From NCBI GenBank assembly GCA_034231615.1, contig CM067317.1, positions 42,720,011 to 42,784,010 on the forward strand: a stretch of DNA of 64,000 bases, read 5' to 3'. The translations under genes were made by a program, and so were the position numbers. Of the stretch, positions 5,740 through 63,312 are shown piece by piece (the stretch's first letter is position 1; each line of letters begins with the position of its first letter). The DNA comes from Meghimatium bilineatum. Its lineage: Eukaryota; Mollusca; Gastropoda; Stylommatophora; Philomycidae. The notes under the pieces are model-generated. The model had not been told where the DNA came from and ran no database searches. It saw nothing but the letters and a program-made list of their open reading frames with translations.

Positions 5740-5830
5740 ATATTTCAGCCTGTGTGTTTATTCTTACCTTGACAAAGGTCTAGTGGTCGAAACGTTGAAC
5801 CTGTGTATCTGTCCTATTTTGTAAAATATT
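5740..5830 (+). repeat. Penelope-type terminal repeat fragment with hammerhead-like core
   Basis: The sequence 'cttgacaaaggtctagtgg' runs straight into 'tcgaaacgttgaac'. This matches the conserved block seen in the terminal repeats at 60846-61260 and 57565-58790. It resembles a hammerhead core (CUGANGA, stem II, GAAA), here with substitutions in the first box. Confidence 0.5.
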
Positions 5831-16396: not shown

Positions 16397-16499
16397 AATA
16401 TTCATCCATTTTCGCTGGCTGTAATTGTCCAACTCTGACATCTGCAAAGACGAAACTGTAACAGGGTAATAAAGTTGTGCTAATTGCCGTAAACACATA

Positions 16500-16590
16500 T
16501 GATAACACACACACAAAACGACGTTTCGACCAAAAGGCCTTATAAATAACACATTCACAATAAAACTCGACGAGTAAGAACGGCACTATT
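16500..16590 (-). repeat. Penelope-type terminal repeat fragment
   Basis: On the - strand 'ataaggccttttggtcgaaa' followed by 'cgt' is the conserved hammerhead-like block (stem II 'aaggcc'/'ggt', then GAAA). A run of ACACAC precedes it on the + strand. Confidence 0.5.
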
Positions 16591-16704
16591 GGCGTTCGCG
16601 TTCACATGACAGCCAAAAATATGTATTATTAGAGGTTTATATAGGTTTATCTTCACTGCTGTACTAATTCTGCTCTTCCATATAGTATTTACCTGGACAT
16701 TGTA

Positions 16705-20210: not shown

Positions 20211-23200
20211 GGGTAATACTAATCCACCTGAGGGTACACTCATCCACCTGGAGTTATATTCATGCAACTGAGATGTTGTATTCATCTACATGGGGTTACA
20301 CTCATCCACCTGAGATTACACTCATCCACCTGAGATTACACTCATCCACCTGGAGTTATATTCATGCAACTGAGATGTTGTATTCATCTACATGGGGTTA
20401 CACTCATCCACCTGAGATTACACTCATCCACCTGAGATTACACTCATCCACCTGGAGTTATATTCATGCAACTGAGATGTTGCTTTAATCTACATGGGGG
20501 TTACATTTATCCACCTGAGATTACACTCATCCACCTGAGATTACACTCATCCACCTGAGATTACACTCATCCACCTGAGATTACACTCATCAACCTGAGA
20601 TTACACTCATCCACCTGAGATTACACTCATCCGCCTGAGATTACACTCATCCGCCTGAGATTACACTCATCCACCTGATATTACACTCATCAACTTAAGA
20701 TTACACTCATCCACCTGAGATTACACTCATCTACGTGGGGTTACACTCATCCACCTGAGATTACACTCATCAACCTGAGATTATACTCATCCACCTGATA
20801 TTACACTCATCCACCTGAGATTACACTCATCCGCCGGAGATTACACTCATCACCCTGAGATTACACTCATCCACCTGAGATTAAAATCATCCACCTGAGA
20901 TTACACTCATCTACATGGGGTTACACTCATCTACATGGGGTTACATTCATCTACATGGGGTTACATTCATCCACCTGAGATTACACTCATCTACATGGGG
21001 TTACATTCATCTACATGGGGTTACATTCATCTACATGGGGTTACATTCATCTACATGGGGTTACATTCATCTACATGGGGTTACATTCATCTACATGGGG
21101 TTACATTCATCCACCTGAGATTACACTCATCTACATGGGGTTACATTCATCCACCTGAGATTACACTCATCTACATGGGGTTACATTCATCCACCTGAGA
21201 TTACACTCATCTACATGGGGTTACATTCATCTACATGGGGTTACATTCATCTACATGGGGTTACATTCATCCACCTGAGATTACACTCATCTACATGGGG
21301 TTACATTCATCCACCTGAGATTACACTCATCTACATGGGGTTACATTCATCTACATGGGGTTACATTCATCTACATGGGGTTACATTCATCTACATGGGG
21401 TTACATTCATCCACCTGAGATTACACTCATCTACATGGGGTTACATTCATCCACCTGAGATTACACTCATCTACATGGGGTTACATTCATCTACATGGGG
21501 TTACATTCATCCACCTGAGATTACACTCATCTACATGGGGTTACACTCATCTACATGGGGTTACACTCATCTACATGGGATTACATTCATCTACATGGGG
21601 TTACATTCATCTACATGGGGTTACATTCATCTACATGGGGTTACATTCATCTACATGGGGTTACATTCATCTACATGGGGTTACATTCATCCACCTGAGA
21701 TTACACTCATCTACATGGGGTTACATTCATCTACATGGGGTTACATTCATCTACATGGGGTTACATTCATCTACATGGGGTTACATTCATCTACATGGGG
21801 TTACATTCATCTACATGGGGTTACATTCATCTACATGGGGTTACATTCATCCACCTGAGATTACACTCATCTACATGGGGTTACATTCATCTACATGGGG
21901 TTACATTCATCTACATGGGGTTACATTCATCCACCTGAGATTACACTCATCTACATGGGGTTACATTCATCTACATGGGGTTACATTCATCCACCTGAGA
22001 TTACACTCATCTACATGGGGTTACATTCATCTACATGGGGTTACATTCATCCACCTGAGATTACACTCATCTACATGGGGTTACATTCATCTACATGGGG
22101 TTACATTCATCTACATGGGGTTACATTCATCTACATGGGGTTACATTCATCCACCTGAGATTACACTCATCTACATGGGGTTACACTCATCTACATGGGG
22201 TTACATTCATCTACATGGGGTTACATTCATCCACCTGAGATTACATTCATCTACATGGGGTTACATTCATCTACATGGGGTTACATTCATCTACATGGGG
22301 TTACATTCATCTACATGGGGTTACATTCATCTACATGGGGTTACATTCATCTACATGGGGTTACATTCATCCACCTGAGATTACACTCATCTACATGGGG
22401 TTACATTCATCTACATGGGGTTACATTAATCTACATGGGGTTACATTCATCTACATGGGGTTACATTCATCTACATGGGGTTACATTCATCTACATGGGG
22501 TTACATTCATCTACATGGGGTTACATTCATCCACCTGAGATTACACTCATCTACATGGGGTTACATTCATCTACATGGGGTTACATTCATCTACATGGGG
22601 TTACATTCATCCACCTGAGATTACACTCATCTACATGGGGTTACATTCATCTACATGGGGTTACATTCATCCACCTGAGATTACACTCATCTACATGGGG
22701 TTACATTCATCTACATGGGGTTACATTCATCCACCTGAGATTACACTCATCTACATGGGGTTACATTCATCTACATGGGGTTACATTCATCTACATGGGG
22801 TTACATTCATCTACATGGGGTTACATTCATCCACCTGAGATTACACTCATCTACATGGGGTTACACTCATCTACATGGGGTTACATTCATCTACATGGGG
22901 TTACATTCATCCACCTGAAATTACATTCATCTACATGGGGTTACATTCATCTACATGGGGTTACATTCATCTACATGGGGTTACATTCATCTACATGGGG
23001 TTACATTCATCTACATGGGGTTACATTCATCTACATGGGGTTACATTCATCCACCTGAGATTACACTCATCTACATGGGGTTACATTCATCTACATGGGG
23101 TTACATTCATCTACATGGGGTTACATTCATCTACATGGGGTTACATTCATCCACCTGAGATTACACTCATCTACATGGGGTTACACTCATCTACATGGGG

Positions 23201-23923
23201 TTACATTCATCCACCTGAGATTACATTCATCTACATGGGGTTACATTCATCCACCTGAGATTACATTCATCTACATGGGGTTACATTCATCTACATGGGG
23301 TTACACTCATCTACATGGGGTTACATTCATCTACATGGGGTTACACTCATCTACATGGGGTTACACTCATCTACATGGGGTTACATTCATCTACATGGGG
23401 TTACATTCATCCACCTGAGATTACACTCATCTACATGGGGTTACATTCATCTACATGGGGTTACATTCATCTACATGGGGTTACATTCATCTACATGGGG
23501 TTACATTCATCCACCTGAGATTACACTCATCTACATGGGGTTACACTCATCTACATGGGGTTACACTCATCTACATGGGGTTACACTCATCTACATGGGG
23601 TTACATTCATCCACCTGAGATTACACTCATCTACATGGGGTTACACTCATCTACATGGGGTTACACTCATCTACATGGGGTTACATTCATCTACATGGGG
23701 TTACATTCATCTACATGGGGTTACATTCATCCACCTGAGATTACACTCATCTACATGGGGTTACACTCATCTACATGGGGTTACACTCATCTACATGGGG
23801 TTACATTCATCCACCTGAGATTACACTTATCCGCCTGAGATTACACTCATCCACCTGAGATTTCACTCATCAACTTAAGATTACACTCATCCACCTGAGA
23901 TTACACTCATCCGCCTGATGTTA
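20211..23923. repeat. 20-bp satellite, ~185 units, two alternating monomer types
   Basis: Monomer A is 'ttacattcatctacatgggg'. Monomer B is 'ttacactcatccacctgaga'. The 5' edge (20250-20470) has a 102-bp higher-order unit with an extra 'ggagttatattcatgcaact' motif, repeated about twice. Next comes a B-rich zone (to ~20900), then an A-rich core to ~23800, then B-type again. The unit has no + strand stop in any frame, so all three frames are open for up to ~287 codons as 20-residue repeats. This is a property of the repeat and not evidence of a gene. Confidence 0.97.
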
Positions 23924-34569: not shown

Positions 34570-34619
34570 TTCTTCTTTTGCGTTCATTCTCAAACTCCCA
34601 TTGGATCTCTCTTGTGAAT

Positions 34620-34860
34620 ACAAAATAAAGTATAACGGTTGCTATAAAATCCTAACTATCAATGTTAACAATAAATAACTAGCAATAAACAAAAGAACAA
34701 TGACTATTTTCCACATTACGGTCCAATAGGGACCTTTCTCAAGAAACATAATAAAAAATACACAAAACCAGGAAAATATTTTAAACTGGTATGACTTGGA
34801 CATGTTTTTCTCACAACAAAACATTCCCAAGTGAAGAATGAAGAAGGCCATGCATGTCTA
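34620..34860 (-). repeat. Penelope-like element, left terminal copy
   Basis: Its reverse complement closely matches 35830-36030, including 'gagaaaaacat', 'ggttttgtgtatt', 'gagaaaggtccctattggac' and 'tttgtttattgctagttat'. On this strand the hammerhead-like block is in the same orientation as the RT coding at 35520-35745. The GAAA box is mutated to 'gtaa'. Confidence 0.75.
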
Positions 34861-35228
34861 CTGAATGATGAATTATGTGTGTTCAATATGTTTACGCATT
34901 ATTAATAGACAGAAATAGTCATAGATCAATAGGACAATTGCCAGGGGTGATGAAATAATATATCAGATCAAGTGGAAGTCCAATATAAATGATGAAAAAT
35001 GCAAAAGGATAGTTGGCAAAGTAGATAACAAATAGACATAGAGATTATAGAAATATGTAATGAGGATCAGTAGTTGACAGCGTCTAGAATAGATGATGTA
35101 TTAAAATATACACATATCGATACATAATTACGCAACTAAATACATATATATACATACACATCTGAATACGAATACATTAATGCAGAGATGAGAAAAAGGG
35201 AGGGAATGGTGACAAATACTTTGGGTGA
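34861..35228. other. Internal region of the Penelope-like remnant
   Basis: AT-rich sequence between the left terminal copy and the 50-bp array. No reading frame is recognised. Confidence 0.4.
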
Positions 35229-35488
35229 GATGTGTAAAGAAGAAAACTATGAGAAGCAGTTAGGGTTATAATGTACGGATGTGGTAAAGAAGAAAACTAT
35301 GAGAAGCAGTTAGGGTTATAATGTACGGATGTGGTAAAGAAGAAAACTATGAGAAGCAGTTAGGGTTATAATGTACGGATGTGGTAAAGAAGAAAACTAT
35401 GAGAAGCAGTTAGGGTTATAATGTACGGATGTGGTAAAGAAGAAAACTATGAGAAGCAGTTAGGGTTATAATGTACGGATGTGGTAAA
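35229..35488. repeat. 50-bp minisatellite, 5 near-identical copies
   Basis: Unit 'aagaagaaaactatgagaag' plus 'cagttagggttataatgtac' plus 'ggatgtggta'. It sits inside the Penelope-like remnant, between the RT fragment and the left terminal copy. Confidence 0.97.
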
Positions 35489-35489
35489 G

Positions 35490-35760
35490 GATATAAATCC
35501 TATGGAAACACAAATGTCAACAGAAAATGAGACAATAAGACACAGGTAAATTTAATAGCACGATGGAAGTCACTAACAAAAGTTTATGAAACGGTTACGG
35601 TCATACAGAGAAATACCAGTAACTCCAAAACCATCATCAATGTAGCGACGGAATATGTTAGGAACAGGGCCTTGAAAAGTGGAAAAGATAAGATGTTCAA
35701 GGTAACCCATAAATAAGCAGGCATAACTGGGTCCCATCTACTGCTACTATTCTTCGACTG
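35490..35760 (-). pseudogene. Penelope-like reverse transcriptase fragment
   Basis: The - strand is open for about 70 codons with 'YACLFMGYLEHLIFSTF', then 'GPVPNIFRRYIDDGFG' (catalytic YxDD box as RYIDD) and 'FINFVSDFHRAIKFT'. The order and wording fit Penelope-like elements rather than RTE or I LINEs, whose box here is YADD. Upstream finger motifs and the downstream GIY-YIG domain are missing. The flanking inverted terminal copies support the call. Confidence 0.8.
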
Positions 35761-35829
35761 GCTGAATTAGTCCTTACCTTGAATTCAACTGACACTTTTT
35801 TTAAAATCACATTTGCGGTGTAGCTAAGG

Positions 35830-36050
35830 ATACCAGGATGTTTTGTGGTGAGAAAAACATCTCCAAGTCATCCCAATTTTAAATATTTTTATGGTTTTGT
35901 GTATTTTTATTGTTATGTGTTTCTAGAGAAAGGTCCCTGTTGGAACGTAACATGGAAAATAGTCTTTGTTCTTTTGTTTATTGCTAGTTATTTATTGTTA
36001 GGATTTTATAGTAACCTTTTTACTTTATTTTGTATTTACTGCTTATTCAT
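35830..36050 (+). repeat. Penelope-like element, right terminal copy (inverted)
   Basis: It pairs with 34620-34860 in inverted orientation, so relative to the RT reading direction this 5' copy is reversed. It contains 'tctagagaaaggtccctg' followed by 'ttggaacgtaac', a decayed hammerhead-like block. Confidence 0.75.
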
Positions 36051-36107
36051 TTGGTTACTGCGACCTCTCCATTGTGTCGGACATTCTCTAACATTTTTGG
36101 TTATTTA

Positions 36108-36245
36108 TATAGATCTCTCTTGTAACAGGACAATGGTCCTACCAGAGATTTTCAGCAGCCTAGAGTCCAGAGAATGGAAATACGTTGTGGCGCAGTTTTT
36201 TGTGTGCCAATGGCTCGACAACCCTCTTCAGCGGAATATTGATTT
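36108..36245 (+). repeat. R1 dispersed repeat
   Basis: 'tctcttgtaacaggacaatgg', 'agagaatggaaatacgttgt' and 'gtgccaatggctcgacaac' match R1. It sits at the edge of the Penelope-like remnant. Confidence 0.75.
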
Positions 36246-40202: not shown

Positions 40203-40391
40203 CTATATCTGTAATTCTGTCTCCTTAATAAAACTCACTGTCTTTTGTAGTTCATACAGTGTCCCATAGAGTTTTGATTCCAGTGTTGTTTCCTCTGGCC
40301 AATATGTCTGCCTCAGTGTTTCATGCTCAGAACACTCTTGAAGTATATGTTTGGCACTCTGTGCTGCCTGTCCACATGGCCGTGTTGCCAA
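40203..40391 (-). pseudogene. LINE C-terminal Cys/His block
   Basis: In a frame shifted from the main ORF: 'TRPCGQAAQSAKHILQECSE', a CxxC-H-C-like end typical after RNase H in I-group LINEs, then ~35 residues to a stop at 40203. Confidence 0.7.
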
Positions 40392-42025
40392 TCTTTAACT
40401 TTGTATACATGTGACTGCGGAGTCGGTTCTGTTCTGAGACGTAGAATTATAACTTGTTCTGATCTGTTCATAATGTGATAGTCATCTTGTGTTAGTGTTT
40501 GTGGCTTTCTTATTGACTTGATCATCTGTTTTTCCTGATGGTAGGTGATTGGTATATCTGGTTGGTCTTCGGCAGCACCTTCCTTAGCCAGTTGGTCTGC
40601 TTTTTCATTTCCTGGTATTCCACAGTGAGAGGGTATCCACTTCATGGTTACCCTATACTGGTAAGATAATTCGCTAAGTAATTTTTTCAAGTCTGTTAGT
40701 TTTCCAGAGTGGGGAGCTTGAAGCACTGACCTTGCATCTGTCAGGAATACCACAGGCTGTAGGTCAGAGTTGGAGTTCAGCAGTTTTTTAGCTGCCATAC
40801 TAATTGCTTGGATTTCAGCATCATAATTATTGCAGAATTTTCCTGTTGGTGTTCTGATGGTATCTCTAGGCTTGTGTGGATATTCTATATATACACCTGC
40901 ACCTCCATTCCTCACGGCATTCTGTGCTGACCCATCTGTGTATACTCTGACCCATATATCTTGTGGATATTCCTCATCCAGGAAACTGAGGGTGACTGTT
41001 CTTCGCTGCACACTGTTCTGTTCGTCCTCGCTTAGTATTCCTTTCACATGGGTCTGAATGAATATTGGCATTCTATGCCTTTCACTCCATGGGATTTGTT
41101 CTGGTACAGGCCTTAAGGGGCTGTCAACTTCAGGTTGGTCTGTAAGTTGTCTGCGGAGTCGTTTAGCTTGATGGATAAAGCTGCTTCTTTTCAGTCGCCC
41201 CATTGCTAGATTTTGGAATCTTTCCTTCATTGGATGACTTGGCATACACTGAAACTTTTCTGCCTGAATTAGTATTTTTGTGTCTCTGCGTTCACCAAGT
41301 GTTTGCATTCTTCCAATTTTCTGCATCTCTGCTATGGGTGTTGATTTCATTGCTCCCAACATTATTCTAAGTGCCTGGTTTTGCACTTTATCTAGATCTT
41401 GTAATATGGTGTTTGATGCAGAACACCATGCAGCTGAACCATATTCCAGGTGTGGTCTTATGCCTTGCTGGTAAACTTTACTGAGTATATTCCCACTGGC
41501 TCCCCATGTGGTTCCACTTAGTTTTCTCAGGATAGCTAACTTCCTCCTGGCTTTTGTTGTTGCTTTGTTTATGTGCTGCTTCCATATAAGTTTATCATCA
41601 AATGTAACTCCGAGGTATGTGGGTTGTTTGTCTCCTTTTAAGAGTTCTCCATCTATTTTGATATGACCGGCTTTTTGTTTTGATGAGAGGGTAAAGAGTG
41701 TAGTGCTGCACTTATCTGTGTTAATCCTGACGCACCATCTATTAGCCCATAAGGTTAGAGCATCGATAGCTCTTTGTATTTGTTTAGTGGCCACTGTCGC
41801 ATGTTCTTCCGTGCACCATATGACCAGGTCGTCAGCATACATTGCCACTTTGATCCCATGTGGTAGTTCAGCAACTAGGTCATTGATGTAAACCAAGAAA
41901 AGTGTGGGTGACAGGACTCCTCCCTGGGGTACTCCATGACGCAGTAGAACTTTCTTGCTCTTGCGACCATCTAATTGTACCCTGGCTCTTCTATTATGCA
42001 GGTATGCTTTTACCCATTTGTACAT
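40313..42025 (-). pseudogene. LINE reverse transcriptase C-half plus RNase H
   Basis: 570 uninterrupted codons. RT motif B 'HGVPQGGVLSPTLFLVYIND' and motif C 'AMYADDLVIW' come within the first ~80 residues, then the thumb ('PTYLGVTFDDKLIWKQHI', 'QNQALRIMLG'). From ~residue 365 an RNase H domain has 'VRVYTDGSAQN' (Asp), 'NYDAEIQAI' (Glu), 'VVFLTDARSVL' (Asp) and 'WIPSHCGIPGNEKADQLAK' (His, Asn, Asp). RT copies the element RNA at the nicked target and RNase H removes the template. Both active sites are complete. The frame is lost near 40390 before the C-terminal Cys/His block. Confidence 0.92.
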
Positions 42026-42032
42026 TCTTGAG

Positions 42033-42914
42033 CTAACCCTGCAATTTCTTTAGGAGCCCTTCTTTCCAGACCTTATCAAATGCTTTTCTGAGGTCTATCC
42101 ATGCTGCTAGTACCAGTTTCTTATCTTGGAAGGCATCCTCAATCTCTTGGGAGAGGTAAGTTGCCTTATCTTCAGTAGAGTAGCACTGTCTGAAACCTGC
42201 TTGCTGTGATACCAGAAGGTTTTCACTTTCAAGGTACCACTGCATCCTAAGATTGATAATGCGTTCCATTGTTTTGCATAGACAGCTTGTGAGGCTGATG
42301 GGCCTGTAGTTGGAGACTGTGTTGCCATCTTTTCCTGATTTGAGGAGTGGTATCATTATTGCTTCTCTCCACACATGTGGTACATTACCTGTGGACCAGC
42401 TTGTGTTAAAGATCTGCAGTAGCTTTGCTCTTGCTGCAATTCCCAGGTTTCTAATCATTTCATTGGACACTCCATCAGCTCCAGGGGACTTTTTCAATTT
42501 GGATATTGCATGCTCCAGTTCTCTCATTGTGATTGGTGCCTCCATGACTTCAGGTATAGGTTCACCTTGTCCAATGTTTTGCTGGTTCTCTCGAACCTCC
42601 TGTTGTTTGTCTGGACTGACTCTGATGTTATTGTCTTCTGCAAAATAATCAGCTGCATGTTTACCTGTTAAAATGTTTTTATCTTTATAAAGTGTGATCC
42701 TGGTATTTCTCCCTGTACCTTCATCATTTAGTTGTTTTACAAGTTTCCATAATTTCCTAGTATCTCTTTCTAGGTTCAGCGACTCTGTTTTTTCTTTCCA
42801 GCTGCTCCGTCTGGCTTGTAACTTGGCTCTTTGAAATTTAGCCTTTGTTTGCTGATATTTGTTGTGATGTTCTTGGCTAGGTCTGTTCTCGGCCTGCTGT
42901 CTAGATGTTTCCAT
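42033..42914 (-). pseudogene. LINE reverse transcriptase, N-terminal half
   Basis: A coiled, basic linker is followed by RT fingers and palm: 'KLKKSPGADGVSNEMIRN', 'SNYRPISLTSCLCKTME', 'QAGFRQCYSTEDKATYLSQ' and motif A 'AAWIDLRKAFDKVW' with its catalytic Asp. A one-base shift in a G run at ~42036 moves coding to the next frame, which carries motifs B and C. Confidence 0.88.
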
Positions 42915-43030
42915 CTCAGTTTGTAGTTTTTGCGTGCCCCCCTGGGTATGGTTTTACTAGCAGCATGTAGTATACATCTATTAAATTCACTCACTGCTCT
43001 ATTGATGTCTTTGTCCAAGTTCATGTCCAC
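42776..43030 (-). pseudogene. LINE linker between endonuclease and RT
   Basis: The frame reads 'INRAVSEFNRCILHAASKTI' and 'KLRWKHLDS', the usual segment joining the endonuclease and reverse transcriptase in I-group LINEs. It overlaps the next frame. The productive switch is near 42890. Confidence 0.6.
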
Positions 43031-43033
43031 TGG

Positions 43034-43867
43034 TTAAATGCTGGTACATTTTCCAGTCTGCCCTCTTATAGTTCCACCTAGTGAGCGTGCTGCTGTCCTT
43101 GGTAAATTCATTGTGAATTTTTTCCAACGACACGTGTGATATTCCAGGCTTGGTGAGTGGAATGCCAGATCTGGTGTAGAGGTGGTGTGCCATGCTCTCG
43201 AGTAGAAGGTTGGTGAGTCTGCTGGCTGGTTAATAAGGATGAGATTATTTTCATCCTGCCAGCTCTCAAGTTCCTCACCTATCTTGTCGATATGATCGTA
43301 GCCCCAGCTCTGAGAGTGGCTGTTGAAGTCACCACACACCATAAGTCTCTCTTTATCTGGAATTGTGTCTAGTGCCAATGGTTTATCATTTGGGCAGTAG
43401 TAGATCAGGAGATGGAATTCTGCACTGTCTGTTTTTAGGTGGAGCATCTGGTATTCTGCCCCTTCCATATATACTTTCAGCTTACATGCGCTGATATTGT
43501 TTTTAACAAGTGTCAGAATTCCACCCTTTCGCCTGTCCTTTCGGTCAGATCGGTAGCACTGGTAGCCTCTGATTTTGAACGCTATGTCGCTGCTGAGGTG
43601 TGTTTCTTGGATACAGCATATATTAACTTGTTCTTCACTGAGGACATTTTCAAGTTCCAATTTTTTGCTGTATCCATCTCTTTTACTGTTGACACCCTCA
43701 GCATTCCAGTGCATTATTTTTATTGGTCGTTTGTTTGTTTGGCCAGTAGCTCTATTCCCTTGCCTCCTGGCTCCTCGAGGCAATTGAGAAGGACTTTCAG
43801 TAACTGAGGTTGGGCCCTTTCGAGGTATAGGGCCCGGCCTGAACGTCCGCCACAGGGCAGGCACCAT
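43034..43867 (-). pseudogene. LINE endonuclease domain (frame 1 of a broken ORF)
   Basis: It encodes the target-nicking AP-like endonuclease of the 3.9-kb LINE. Starting at Met (43867), a basic leader of ~50 residues precedes 'KIMHWNAEGVNSKRDG', 'ICCIQETHL' (catalytic Glu), 'GGILTLVKNNI', 'MVCGDFNSHSQSWG' (GDFN) and 'STPDLAF' (SxD). The true reading frame leaves this ORF near 43130: the alternative frame (43193-42999) continues with 'EFTKDSSTLTRWNYKRADW'. The last ~30 residues of this ORF are therefore out of frame. Confidence 0.85.
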
Positions 43868-44165
43868 AACTTTTTATAGATACAGACATGTTTCCATTGT
43901 GTTTTGTGCGTGGCATCCTGATTATCTGTGCGCCTTTTGGCTGGATGCCTCCGTCTTCAGCACTCTGCTTACTTGGGCAGGACTATGGTCCTGCTCGAAT
44001 GGGACTGCCCGACCAGTCTTAGTTTCCAGCCCCTGATGGCTGAACTAAGCCCCATCACCACTGCACGGTGCTGGCCTTGATGGGGAACTGAATATCAAAA
44101 TAATTATTACAAATGACAATAAAATAAGTAGGGAAAAAATGTGATAACTTTATAAGAAAGCTATC

Positions 44166-45004: not shown

Positions 45005-46155
45005 TGTTAGTTTGTATTTTTTAGGGGCCAGTCTTCTTAATCATAAAGCTGAGGAGCCAGGCTTCTAAAAATCATAAAGCTGAGGAGCCAGTCTTCTCAA
45101 AGTTATAAAGCTAATGACCCAGTCTTCTCAAAGTCATAAAGCTAATGACCCAGTCTTCTCAAAGTCATAAAGCTAATGACCCAGTCTTCTCAAAGTTATA
45201 AAGCTAATGACCCAGTCTTCTCAAAGTCATAAAGCTAATGACCCATTCTTCTCAAAGTCATAAAGCTAATGACCCATTCTTCTCAAAGTTATAAAGCTAA
45301 TGACCCAGACTTCTCAAAGTTATAAAGCTAATGACCCAGTCTTCTCAAAGTTATAAAGCTAATGACCCAGTCTTCTCAAAGTTATAAAGCTAATGAACCA
45401 GTCTTCTCAAAGTTATAAAGCTAATGACCCAGTCTTCTCAAAGTCATAAAGCTAATGACCCAGTCTTCTCAAAGTTATAAAGCTAATGACCCATTCTTCT
45501 CAAAGTTATAAAGCTAATGACCCATTCTTCTCAAAGTCTAAAGTTAATGACCCAGTCTTCTCAAAGTTATAAAGCTAATGACCCAGTCTTCTCAAAGTTA
45601 TAAAGCTAATGACCCAGTCTTCTCAAAGTTATAAAGCTAATGACCCAGTCTTCTCAAAGTTATAAAGCTAATGACCCATTCTTCTCAAAGTCTAAAGTTA
45701 ATGACCCAGTCTTCTCAAAGTTATAAAGCTAATGACCCAGTCTTCTCAAAGTTATAAAGCTAATGACCCAGTCTTCTCAAAGTTATAAAGCTAATGACCC
45801 AGTCTTCTCAAAGTTATAAAGCTAATGACCCAGTCTTCTCAAAGTTATAAAGCTAATGACCCAGTCTTCTCAAAGTTATAAAGCTAATGACCCAGTCTTC
45901 TCAAAGTTATAAAGCTAATGACCCAGTCTTCTCAAAGTTATAAAGCTAATGACCCATTCTTCTCAAAGTCTAAAGTTAATGACCCAGTCTTCTCAAAGTT
46001 ATAAAGCTAATGACCCAGTCTTCTCAAAGTTATAAAGCTAATGACCCAGTCTTCTCAAAGTTATAAAGCTAATGACCCAGTCTTCTCAAAGTTATAAAGC
46101 TAATGACCCAGTCTTCTCAAAGTTATAAAGCTAATGACCCAGTCTTCTCAAAGTC
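45005..46155. repeat. 31-bp minisatellite, ~37 copies
   Basis: Unit 'aaagctaatgacccagtctt' plus 'ctcaaagttat'. The first copies ('gaggagccagtcttct') are diverged and lead in from unique sequence. A variant 'cccattcttctcaaagtcta' recurs three or four times at ~220-280-bp spacing, suggesting higher-order amplification. Confidence 0.97.
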
Positions 46156-46252
46156 TAAAGCTACAGATTTGTATTTTTTAAATGATACGTTCAGCTCCCA
46201 TCTCATGGGCATTAAATATGAAATTTTATCTCACTATATATACATCAAATCT

Positions 46253-57340: not shown

Positions 57341-57564
57341 TTAATTAATAATAATAAATCAAGCATATCCTGTACAGGTCATCCCAGTGTGTGTAGACTT
57401 AGAGTTCTGGTCAGGTGTTGATTGTGTGATCTTTAGGGCCTTCCAAAAAAATTAAATTTATTTCCCTCATTTCTAGATAGTACTACTAATATATCTAATA
57501 ATATCAATAGAAAATGTGGATGGTTGATGTTCAATCTACCTAGTCTGACAAGGTAATCAAAATT

Positions 57565-57800
57565 TGCTAATTACTGGAAACATACATAATGATGCACACA
57601 AATTGGCATTTTGAACAAAAGACCTTTATCAAGACTACATACACACAAAAAACGATGAGTAAGAATGACAATTTTGACGTTATCATGACAGAGCAAAATA
57701 TGGATATAACCTGGAAGGGTTCAAACTAGAAGTTTGTGAGGTGAAAAAAAACACACACAGAAGATAGACAAAACAAACCCAAATATTGGTGGAAAAAAGA
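57565..57800 (-). repeat. Penelope-like element, left terminal copy
   Basis: The reverse complement of 58560-58790 shares 'tggaaacayacataat', the 'caaaa(g/a)acctttatcaa' block, 'atatggatataacc' and 'gacaaaacaaacccaaatat'. The hammerhead-like block lies on the - strand, the same direction as the coding fragment. Confidence 0.75.
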
Positions 57801-58365
57801 TAAAACAGAAATGATGAAACAACATCATATCATCCATACGAATGACTGGCATTAATCCCAACAGTGCAATCATACCAAACTGATATAAATAACAGCTCTC
57901 AGGTGCATGACGGGTCTGGCCATCTGAGAGGCATGACTTAATGGTCGTCACCTGATTATCATAGGCACCCTGATAGCACATGCTATTTAAATGGTCAGCA
58001 GCAGAAGTGTCCTTCTGGTTTTTTTTATACTGTATGCATGCACACAGAATCGGTCTGCGAGCCTCCTTCCAGTCTCACCAACATATGTCTTGGTGAACCA
58101 CATGCAGATAATGGCATAGATGGTGTGAACACACATGTGAAACTTTCTTCAATGATGAAGGTAGCTGTGGGGAATGTAACAGACCAGGTCTTGGTGACAT
58201 AGGCACAGGTGTAGCATTTATTATGTTTGCAGCTGATCGTGCTGAAATGATTAGGAATGTCAGGCTTGCGGTGACTCTGGAGTGATAAATTCCTGATATT
58301 CTTGTCACATCTGTAGACAACCAGAGGAGGGGGTCACAGAACATATCACTTGTTGTTGGATCCAA
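57720..58365 (-). pseudogene. Penelope-like element GIY-YIG endonuclease fragment
   Basis: In shifting - strand frames: 'PLVVYRCDKNIRNLSLQSHR', 'HNKCYTCAYVTKTW' (Cys pair), 'HTIYAIICMWFTKTYVGETG' followed by 'RRLADRF', and a C-terminal 'TRHAPESCYLYQFG'. This order (Cys linker, GIY-YIG with TYVGETGRRLADRF, C-terminal Glu block) is the end of Penelope-like elements, where the domain cuts the target DNA. At least two frameshifts inactivate it. The reverse transcriptase part is missing. Confidence 0.8.
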
Positions 58366-58559
58366 CTGAAGAAGATGATGTCAGAGAAGGATACGATGAA
58401 TAGCAGAGCTATGGTGGTGGAAAGTGAGAACAAGTTTGACCTTGTCCATATAGGACCACCTCCAAGTGTTCTTGAGAGTATCCTGGTGGGAGAGGTGTCA
58501 CACACCCGAAACAGTCCAGATGGCAAGATTGAACCCTTTGGGATTAAAGCCCATTATTT
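58366..58559 (-). pseudogene. Penelope-like coding remnant, upstream part
   Basis: The region between the right terminal copy and the GIY-YIG part has short open frames. By position it should hold the linker after the RT, but decay prevents a firm reading. Confidence 0.45.
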
Positions 58560-58790
58560 CTGGGCTGTTTGTCTTGTTTTACCGATATTTGGGTTTGTTT
58601 TATCTATTTTCTATTTTTATTTGTTCATATCTGACCTAGTTTTAACCCATCTGGGTTATATCCATATTTTCTCTGCCATGTGAGCATCAATATGTTCTTG
58701 TATGTTGATAAAACCTTTTTGTCAAAATGTTGATTTTTGTGTTTGATTATGTGTGTTTCCAGTGATTAACAAAACTTCATTACCCTGTTA
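58560..58790 (+). repeat. Penelope-like element, right terminal copy (inverted)
   Basis: Inverted partner of 57565-57800. It contains 'ttgataaaacctttttgtca' then 'aaatgttg', a decayed hammerhead-like block on the + strand, opposite to the coding direction. Confidence 0.75.
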
Positions 58791-58834
58791 CATTTAAGTT
58801 GGATTTACGTTTTGCAGTAGCAAGTACAATATTA

Positions 58835-58972
58835 CCAATCTAATCTGATAAGTTTGGTTTGCCACGGGTTGTAATTATTATCAATCTAGTCTGATAAGTT
58901 GGGTTTGCCACAGGTTTTAATTATTATCAATCTAGTCTAATAAATTGAGTTTGCCACTGGTTTTAATTATTT
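58835..58972. repeat. 46-bp minisatellite, 3 copies
   Basis: Unit 'caatctagtctgataagttg' plus 'ggtttgccacaggttttaat' plus 'tattat'. It adjoins the last recognised membrane-protein exon. Confidence 0.92.
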
Positions 58973-60810: not shown

Positions 60811-60845
60811 AATATAAGGTAACTGCGTGAAACGTAACAACAACT

Positions 60846-61260
60846 GTACTTACGTAAAACACAGGTTAATATAATCGCTTCATTCAGACACGACAGACTA
60901 TAACTAAAACTAGTGGGTAATGATATGCACACAAGAAAACTTACAAATTACGATACACAAAACATATTCAATTTTTCAACCAAAAGATTTTTATCAAGAT
61001 ACACAAAAAACATCAAACGACGACGAATGGAAAAATTATAAATATTTCCATTGTTTGTTTGTTGTGATAATTTTTCCATTCATCGTCTTTTGATGTTTTG
61101 TGTATATCCTGATAAAGACCTTTTGGTTGAAACGTTGAATATGTTTTGTGTATTGTAATTTGTATGTTTTCTTGTGTGCACATCATTACCCACTAGTTTT
61201 AGTTATAGTCTGTCGTGTCTGAGTGAAGCGATTATATTAACCTGTGTTTTACTAAGTACA
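60846..61260. repeat. Near-perfect inverted repeat, ~195-bp arms, Penelope-type
   Basis: Left arm 60846-61040 and right arm 61067-61260 are reverse complements with few mismatches, separated by ~26 bases. Each arm carries 'tgataaagaccttttggt' then 'tgaaacgttgaat' or its decayed version (hammerhead-like). The left motif is on the - strand and the right on the + strand, as at the two Penelope-like loci. In an intron of the - strand gene. A transcript would fold into one long hairpin. Confidence 0.9.
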
Positions 61261-63190: not shown

Positions 63191-63312
63191 ATGCAATATA
63201 AAATAATTGAGTCCAACATCACTATGAGGCACCAACATAGGTCTACTTATTATTGCTACTCAGGGATTAATATAAATACGGCAATAAAACATTAATAATC
63301 AACATAAGAATA

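Follow-up and report, generated by a model that had tools for sequence, protein, structure and literature searches.

A decayed, 5'-truncated Penelope-like element with an inverted second 3' end at its front in the genome of Meghimatium bilineatum

The locus at positions 57548-58839 of the window (the whole 64,000-nucleotide stretch of Meghimatium bilineatum DNA that was analyzed, contig CM067317.1) is probably an old, 5'-truncated, endonuclease-bearing Penelope-like element (PLE) whose insertion brought with it a second, more truncated 3' end, placed head-to-head at the front as an inverted pLTR. The element parts and the inverted arm are present at this focal locus, the same layout is found in other copies, and target duplications surround the whole structure at another locus of the window (locus 1) and in one genomic copy (L039). 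At these two loci both parts came in one insertion, which is likely to be the origin in general; for the focal locus itself we infer a single insertion, short of proof.

On the minus strand, the focal element runs from the RT thumb through a Cys linker and a GIY-YIG endonuclease to the 3' end; it is decayed, and its 5' truncation point lies after the RT palm. The direct copy occupies 57548-58520 (minus strand); 30 other genomic copies align to it in the same sense, and its frames contain stops and frame changes. The RT thumb remnant (58286-58500, minus strand) includes PPPLVVYRCDKNIRNL at 58333-58286, just upstream of the Cys linker in the element, where relatives have LVLTFHPHS...PLVAYRRDKNLRDLLV. 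The linker, CKHNKCYTC, is found on the minus strand at about 58205-58231, with the same motif in many relatives. The endonuclease piece at 57987-58148 carries TYVGETGRRLADRF inside an open stretch of the same strand, and the 3' end (pLTR) of the direct copy, also on the minus strand, covers about 57548-57890; comparison of the arms and of sister copies assigned it to a short end type without a tail. We take the PPPLVVYRCDKNIRNL segment to be the thumb of a PLE RT (RT and thumb were recognized by motif), and a Cys linker between RT and endonuclease is a mark of PLEs. Thumb, linker and endonuclease in that order mark the focal element as a PLE, in agreement with the consulted part of PMC11167929. 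A GIY-YIG and Cys linker remnant on the minus strand had been called in an earlier note on this DNA, correctly on both counts.

The Pfam GIY-YIG model gave a weak match to the focal piece alone (E 0.0092, 16.7 bits, below the curated cut-off of 22.6) and matched four of six pieces from relatives at E≤0.1, the best at 1.2e-05. A telomerase-related reverse transcriptase, a hammerhead motif in the pLTR and a target site duplication, on which the observations follow below, belong to the features expected of an endonuclease-bearing PLE. Further such features are a C-terminal GIY-YIG domain, which falls below the cut-off at the focal locus and is stronger in relatives; a Cys-rich linker, here with a pattern that recurs in relatives; and direct or inverted pLTRs with an optional tail, represented here by inverted arms and, at the focal locus and in L039, by a tail on the inverted arm that is absent from the direct end. 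Searches of PDB sequences returned no match to the GIY-YIG piece and nothing relevant otherwise, and the NCBIfam scan yielded a single sub-threshold match, to a group I intron endonuclease (E 0.0043). Two scans of viral contigs and one of prokaryote genome contigs produced pattern matches and no confirmed relative.

The inverted 5' arm (58521-58839, plus strand) holds the last codons of a second copy together with its 3' end, lies head-to-head with the first copy, and matches the 3' ends of other copies. The earlier note had described the flanks as inverted copies, direct downstream and reversed upstream, and had proposed their pairwise alignment. They do align: 57548-57816 and 58552-58788 are 68% identical over 273 bp in inverted orientation (101 bits, E 5e-23), and the flank score was 133 for the inverted versus 16 for the direct orientation. 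None of 1000 equally spaced random window pairs scored as high, which ruled out chance similarity of the flanks. The limits of both arms were widened to those given above by comparison with sister copies. The final ∼45 bp of the inverted arm constitute the tail (58789-58839, plus strand; the L009 alignment extends to about 58841); a separate tail query at E 1e-2 did not detect it. The innermost ∼40 bp of the arm are based on one 42-bp match to L009 (83%) and the pairwise alignment. Six references end 33-75 bp short of the junction on this side, and 58521 is reached via the L009 match only. For the direct side, several references agree on a start at 58520.

The two focal arms are 27.4% apart, and 18 of 25 other copies are nearer to the inverted arm than its partner is. 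Such divergence is compatible with equal age, since an arm may resemble a younger copy more than a partner as old as itself, and two different template RNAs are another possible source. That the focal arms are no nearer to each other than to other copies would also fit two independent PLE insertions in opposite orientation that became adjacent by chance. The large number of family candidates in the genome (6356) favors that explanation as well, and an inverted neighbor 780 bp downstream of L009 shows that chance neighbors exist; the evidence against it comes from the junctions and duplications described below.

A possible target duplication is present at the outer ends of the focal structure. 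CTAGTCTGA at 57540-57548 and CTAATCTGA at 58840-58848 agree in 8 of 9 positions (TCAGATTAG / TCAGACTAG in the sense of the element), with ∼2 nt of overlap between the right copy and the end of the tail. Such agreement was reached by 15 of 5000 random pairs under tight ±2 boundaries that were chosen after inspection, and a wider search preferred a different 7-mer, which was matched by 44 of 400 random pairs. A 46-bp unit, present in three copies (58830-58971), directly borders the element on the right, and the left flank is similar to a part of this unit, which makes a target duplication at the focal locus harder to read.

The family was surveyed in the 1.61-Gb assembly (32 contigs), where 6356 first-look candidates were found and 40 copies, including the focal one, were scored. 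Besides the focal window copy, 20 copies were examined with 10 kb of sequence, 10 with 2.0-2.8 kb (one of them extended) and nine with ∼2.5 kb. At least 926 bp of upstream sequence was available per copy, and inverted segments of at least 40 bp within 1.5 kb were counted. The survey query contained the focal arms and could in principle favor arm-bearing copies. An inverted family segment was found within 1.5 kb upstream in 8/40 copies (focal, L010, L012, L013, L024, L028, L039 and L044), and it abuts the truncated 5' end in 5/40 (focal, L010, L013, L028 and L039). The layout is that of a minority, the other 32 scored copies being without an inverted segment inside 1.5 kb upstream. The case in which other copies would show direct repeats only, named in the earlier note as contrary to its view, was not encountered: a separate same-sense copy of at least 40 bp upstream was seen in none of the 40, and the same-sense upstream pieces in L010 and L024 were taken to be fragments of the direct copy itself, which is interrupted there. 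L029 was classed as ambiguous and left out of the inverted-copy count; it has a 32-bp same-sense tail match ∼1.4 kb upstream and, on extension, a 68-bp inverted piece ∼1.5 kb upstream. On the downstream side, 1.4 kb or more of sequence was available for 22 copies, which showed no abutting inverted segment and one non-abutting segment, that of L009 at 780 bp.

At the junctions of L010, L013, L028 and L039, the homologies of the two parts overlap or miss each other by -5 to +9 nt when the best reference is used for each. Other references leave larger gaps, because those references are truncated or diverged themselves. Abutment within ∼9 nt in five copies, on the 5' side every time, argues against independent insertions, as do the duplications that enclose both arms at locus 1 and in L039, and we regard that explanation as improbable. 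The paired copies start at different points of the element: the offset is 259 bp in L039, 362 bp in L028, 490 bp in L013, 630 bp at the focal locus and 881 bp in L010, and the longer partner is the direct copy in all five abutting pairs. The inverted part of L013 is itself rearranged and stops before the 3' end.

The 3' ends of the family are of two types, ∼45-50 bp apart, without and with the tail. The inverted piece of L012 has a tail, and L010 has one on neither arm. The target duplication of L039, CAATATCAAAGATC / CAATATCAAGGATC, matches in 13 of 14 positions at the two outer ends and encloses both arms (controls: 0/400 in the wide test and 1/5000). The arms of L039 differ by 2.4% in the 3' region, versus at least 38% to other copies; over 909 bp of mostly coding sequence they are 91.4% identical, which is hardly above the values for L036 (90%) and L038 (89%). 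The arms of L010 are 13.4% apart in the 3' region, nearer than any of 27 others (at least 16.3%). A target duplication was looked for in L010 and L028, and none was convincing. In BLAST comparisons, neither L013 nor L028 had arms closer to their own partners than to other copies, and arm identity worked as a test of common origin for L010 and L039 only.

The first PLE locus of the window, locus 1 (34616-36111, minus strand), has the same arrangement around a different part of the element. An RT-like piece with YIDDGFG on the minus strand lies between arms at 34616-34824 and 35838-36039, followed by a 72-bp extension (36040-36111) by which the inverted arm is longer than the direct one. The arms are 84% identical in inverted alignment (34614-34824 / 35838-36039). 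Pfam and PDB searches with the YIDDGFG piece returned no match. Because locus 1 and the focal locus show no mutual match at E≤1e-5, they belong to different families or very distant subfamilies that have the layout in common. The earlier note had pointed to two loci that keep different parts of the ORF in one layout, and this holds, with RT YIDDGFG at locus 1, thumb, linker and GIY-YIG at the focal locus, and inverted arms at both.

Locus 1 sits in an interspersed repeat. Seven other copies of this repeat were aligned, five of them recognizably crossing the insertion site, and the broken halves share GATCTCTCTTGT in 12 of 12 positions (34604-34615 on the left and 36112-36123 on the right). One of 5000 random pairs did as well under tight boundaries, and 39 of 5000 in a looser local-alignment control. 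The head-to-head structure behaves as one insert, since both arms and the 72-bp extension of the upstream arm are enclosed by one duplication. The host repeat (34604-36123 at locus 1) has at least seven further occurrences in the window, e.g., at 63311, 54992, 57194 and 14464, and the ends of L012 and L016 directly adjoin the same repeat. Inside locus 1, a 50-bp minisatellite of ∼5 near-identical copies (35229-35489) has the RT remnant on one side and the 3' arm on the other.

In the consulted portions of PMC3846280, inverted pLTRs placed head-to-head at the 5' end are the typical structure of Penelope, target duplications measure 9-10 bp, and the tail is optional on one of the two inverted pLTRs. 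The inverted upstream layout is already in print for Penelope in those portions, and the focal locus is not a new layout. This published structure, the duplications of locus 1 (12/12) and L039 (13/14) and the inverted segments that abut in 5 of 40 copies support the suggestion of the earlier note that the inverted upstream copy arises by transposition and not by chance rearrangement; as an idea, the transposition origin is not new.

The published reading of how such arms form, proposed by Arkhipova and colleagues for the A. vaga Penelope, is self-priming, in which the template folds back and reverse transcription yields the inverted arm; in the excerpts of PMC3846280 it is inferred from palindromes at inverted junctions. 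A third inverted structure of the window, the pLTR-like palindrome at 60845-61260, fits self-priming well. Its arms (60845-61039 / ∼61067-61260) are head-to-head and begin at the same pLTR point, and the 417 bp are self-inverse at 89%. No ORF was found between these arms and no convincing target duplication around them, and the palindrome may be assigned to the PLE type on its aligned hammerhead-like cores. In the five abutting pairs, however, the partners begin 259-881 bp apart, so that no short hairpin is left, and the outer ends are unequal by a tail or an extension at the focal locus, in L039 and at locus 1, although equal ends would be expected from copying a single template to its end. 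We consider self-priming rather unlikely for this family; a fold-back with a long loop is a possible variant of it. The offsets argue against a short hairpin and would instead favor the end-to-end joining of two cDNAs that were primed separately.

Our tentative preference, held with a little less than even confidence, is that the inverted pLTRs of the focal family stem from two-sided target-primed reverse transcription. Each of the two cut strands of the target would prime cDNA synthesis at the 3' initiation sites of the element, with one RNA or two as template; the resulting cDNAs would end at independent points, and their free ends would then be joined, leaving a head-to-head pair within one target duplication. 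Without recourse to palindrome self-priming, two-sided priming would account for the shared 3' outer ends, the one-sided tail, the direct joins and the inner ends that lie 259-881 bp apart. It would need both target strands to be cut and extended, as PAc does in vitro according to the available text of PMC11167929. The two-sided idea for inverted PLE ends was not found in the consulted parts of PMC3846280 and PMC11167929; the literature search was limited, and no priority is claimed.

LINE-like twin priming offers another route, in which priming by the second target strand takes place internally on the same RNA, so that the upstream part of one element ends up inverted and the downstream part direct. 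In L1 twin priming, one insertion leaves an inverted and a direct part in one target duplication, and it is the upstream stretch that is inverted. The inverted part in the focal locus, L010 and L039 is instead a second 3' end and not the missing upstream part, and we judge twin priming to be a very improbable source of the layout. L024 alone resembles the L1 case: its inverted part covers ∼29-431 and its direct part runs from 298 to the 3' end, so twin priming may have acted there, and the inverted internal ORF segment upstream of L044 would fit as well. In L024 the inverted upstream and direct downstream parts, arranged as LINE-like twin priming would give, span L024:3402-5379. L044 is a young copy, and its inverted segment (136 bp, 592-727 in sense orientation, 97% to L039) lies 384 bp upstream.

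Hammerhead-like cores were aligned in ten pLTR stretches, and the core was stronger in sense than in antisense in 16 of 23 family copies. Rfam gave no hammerhead match at gathering in the window or in 13 loci and none at E≤5 in 57400-58900, with a sub-threshold snoRNA match as its only return. The strict hammerhead pattern was counted six times against a control mean of 2.6, and six was reached by 4 of 60 controls. A hammerhead ribozyme was dropped as firm evidence in view of the Rfam result and of these controls. The hammerhead ribozyme core requires CTGATGA, and the focal family has TTGATAA at the corresponding position, which makes an active ribozyme doubtful. The homologous position in several pLTRs leaves a hammerhead-like motif as a suggestion. 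Such cores, in the form TTGATAAAGG..GGTCGAAACGTTG or variants of it, also occur in pLTR-like stretches at 5769, 8380, 16546 and 60040, and a solo pLTR-like copy at 16454-16626 (minus strand) is related to the two focal arms, with identities of 76% (93 bp) and 70% (167 bp). Elsewhere in the window, long open frames at 40313-43873 (minus strand) look LINE-like by eye, with putative endonuclease, reverse transcriptase (MYADD) and RNase H; a tandem array of a 20-bp unit (20280-23811, ∼176 copies) is organized in a higher-order pattern, with long open frames in a single sense; and a 31-bp unit is repeated ∼37 times at 45028-46163 with 95% matches.

Among known systems, the Adineta vaga Penelope elements Pen2a, Pen2, Pen5 and Pen6 (PMC3846280, in the sections available) have in common with the focal family the GIY-YIG domain, 5'-truncated members, an inverted 3' end lying head-to-head on the 5' side, an optional tail on one inverted pLTR, and duplications of ∼10 bp that some copies have and others lack. 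Those sections stress palindromes at the junctions, whereas the focal family has different truncation points and direct joins in five copies; it also has more copies, in a more decayed state. As far as the consulted text of PMC11167929 goes, Poseidon PAc of Anolis carolinensis has the same RT - GIY-YIG order, which is canonical for PLEs, a tail signature from two initiation sites, and a hammerhead-like pLTR motif; its loci are described as tandem direct repeats. No discussion of inverted copies was found for Poseidon PAc in that text.

By itself, the focal locus, old and decayed, is ordinary, and its value lies in the family. PLE integration is largely unsolved, with further steps still to be validated according to the consulted part of PMC11167929, and inverted ends are a known and unexplained by-product of it. 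With candidate copies in the thousands and an assembly at chromosome scale, the question becomes countable: self-priming and two-sided priming can be told apart by discordance of the inner ends, asymmetry of the tails and target duplications.
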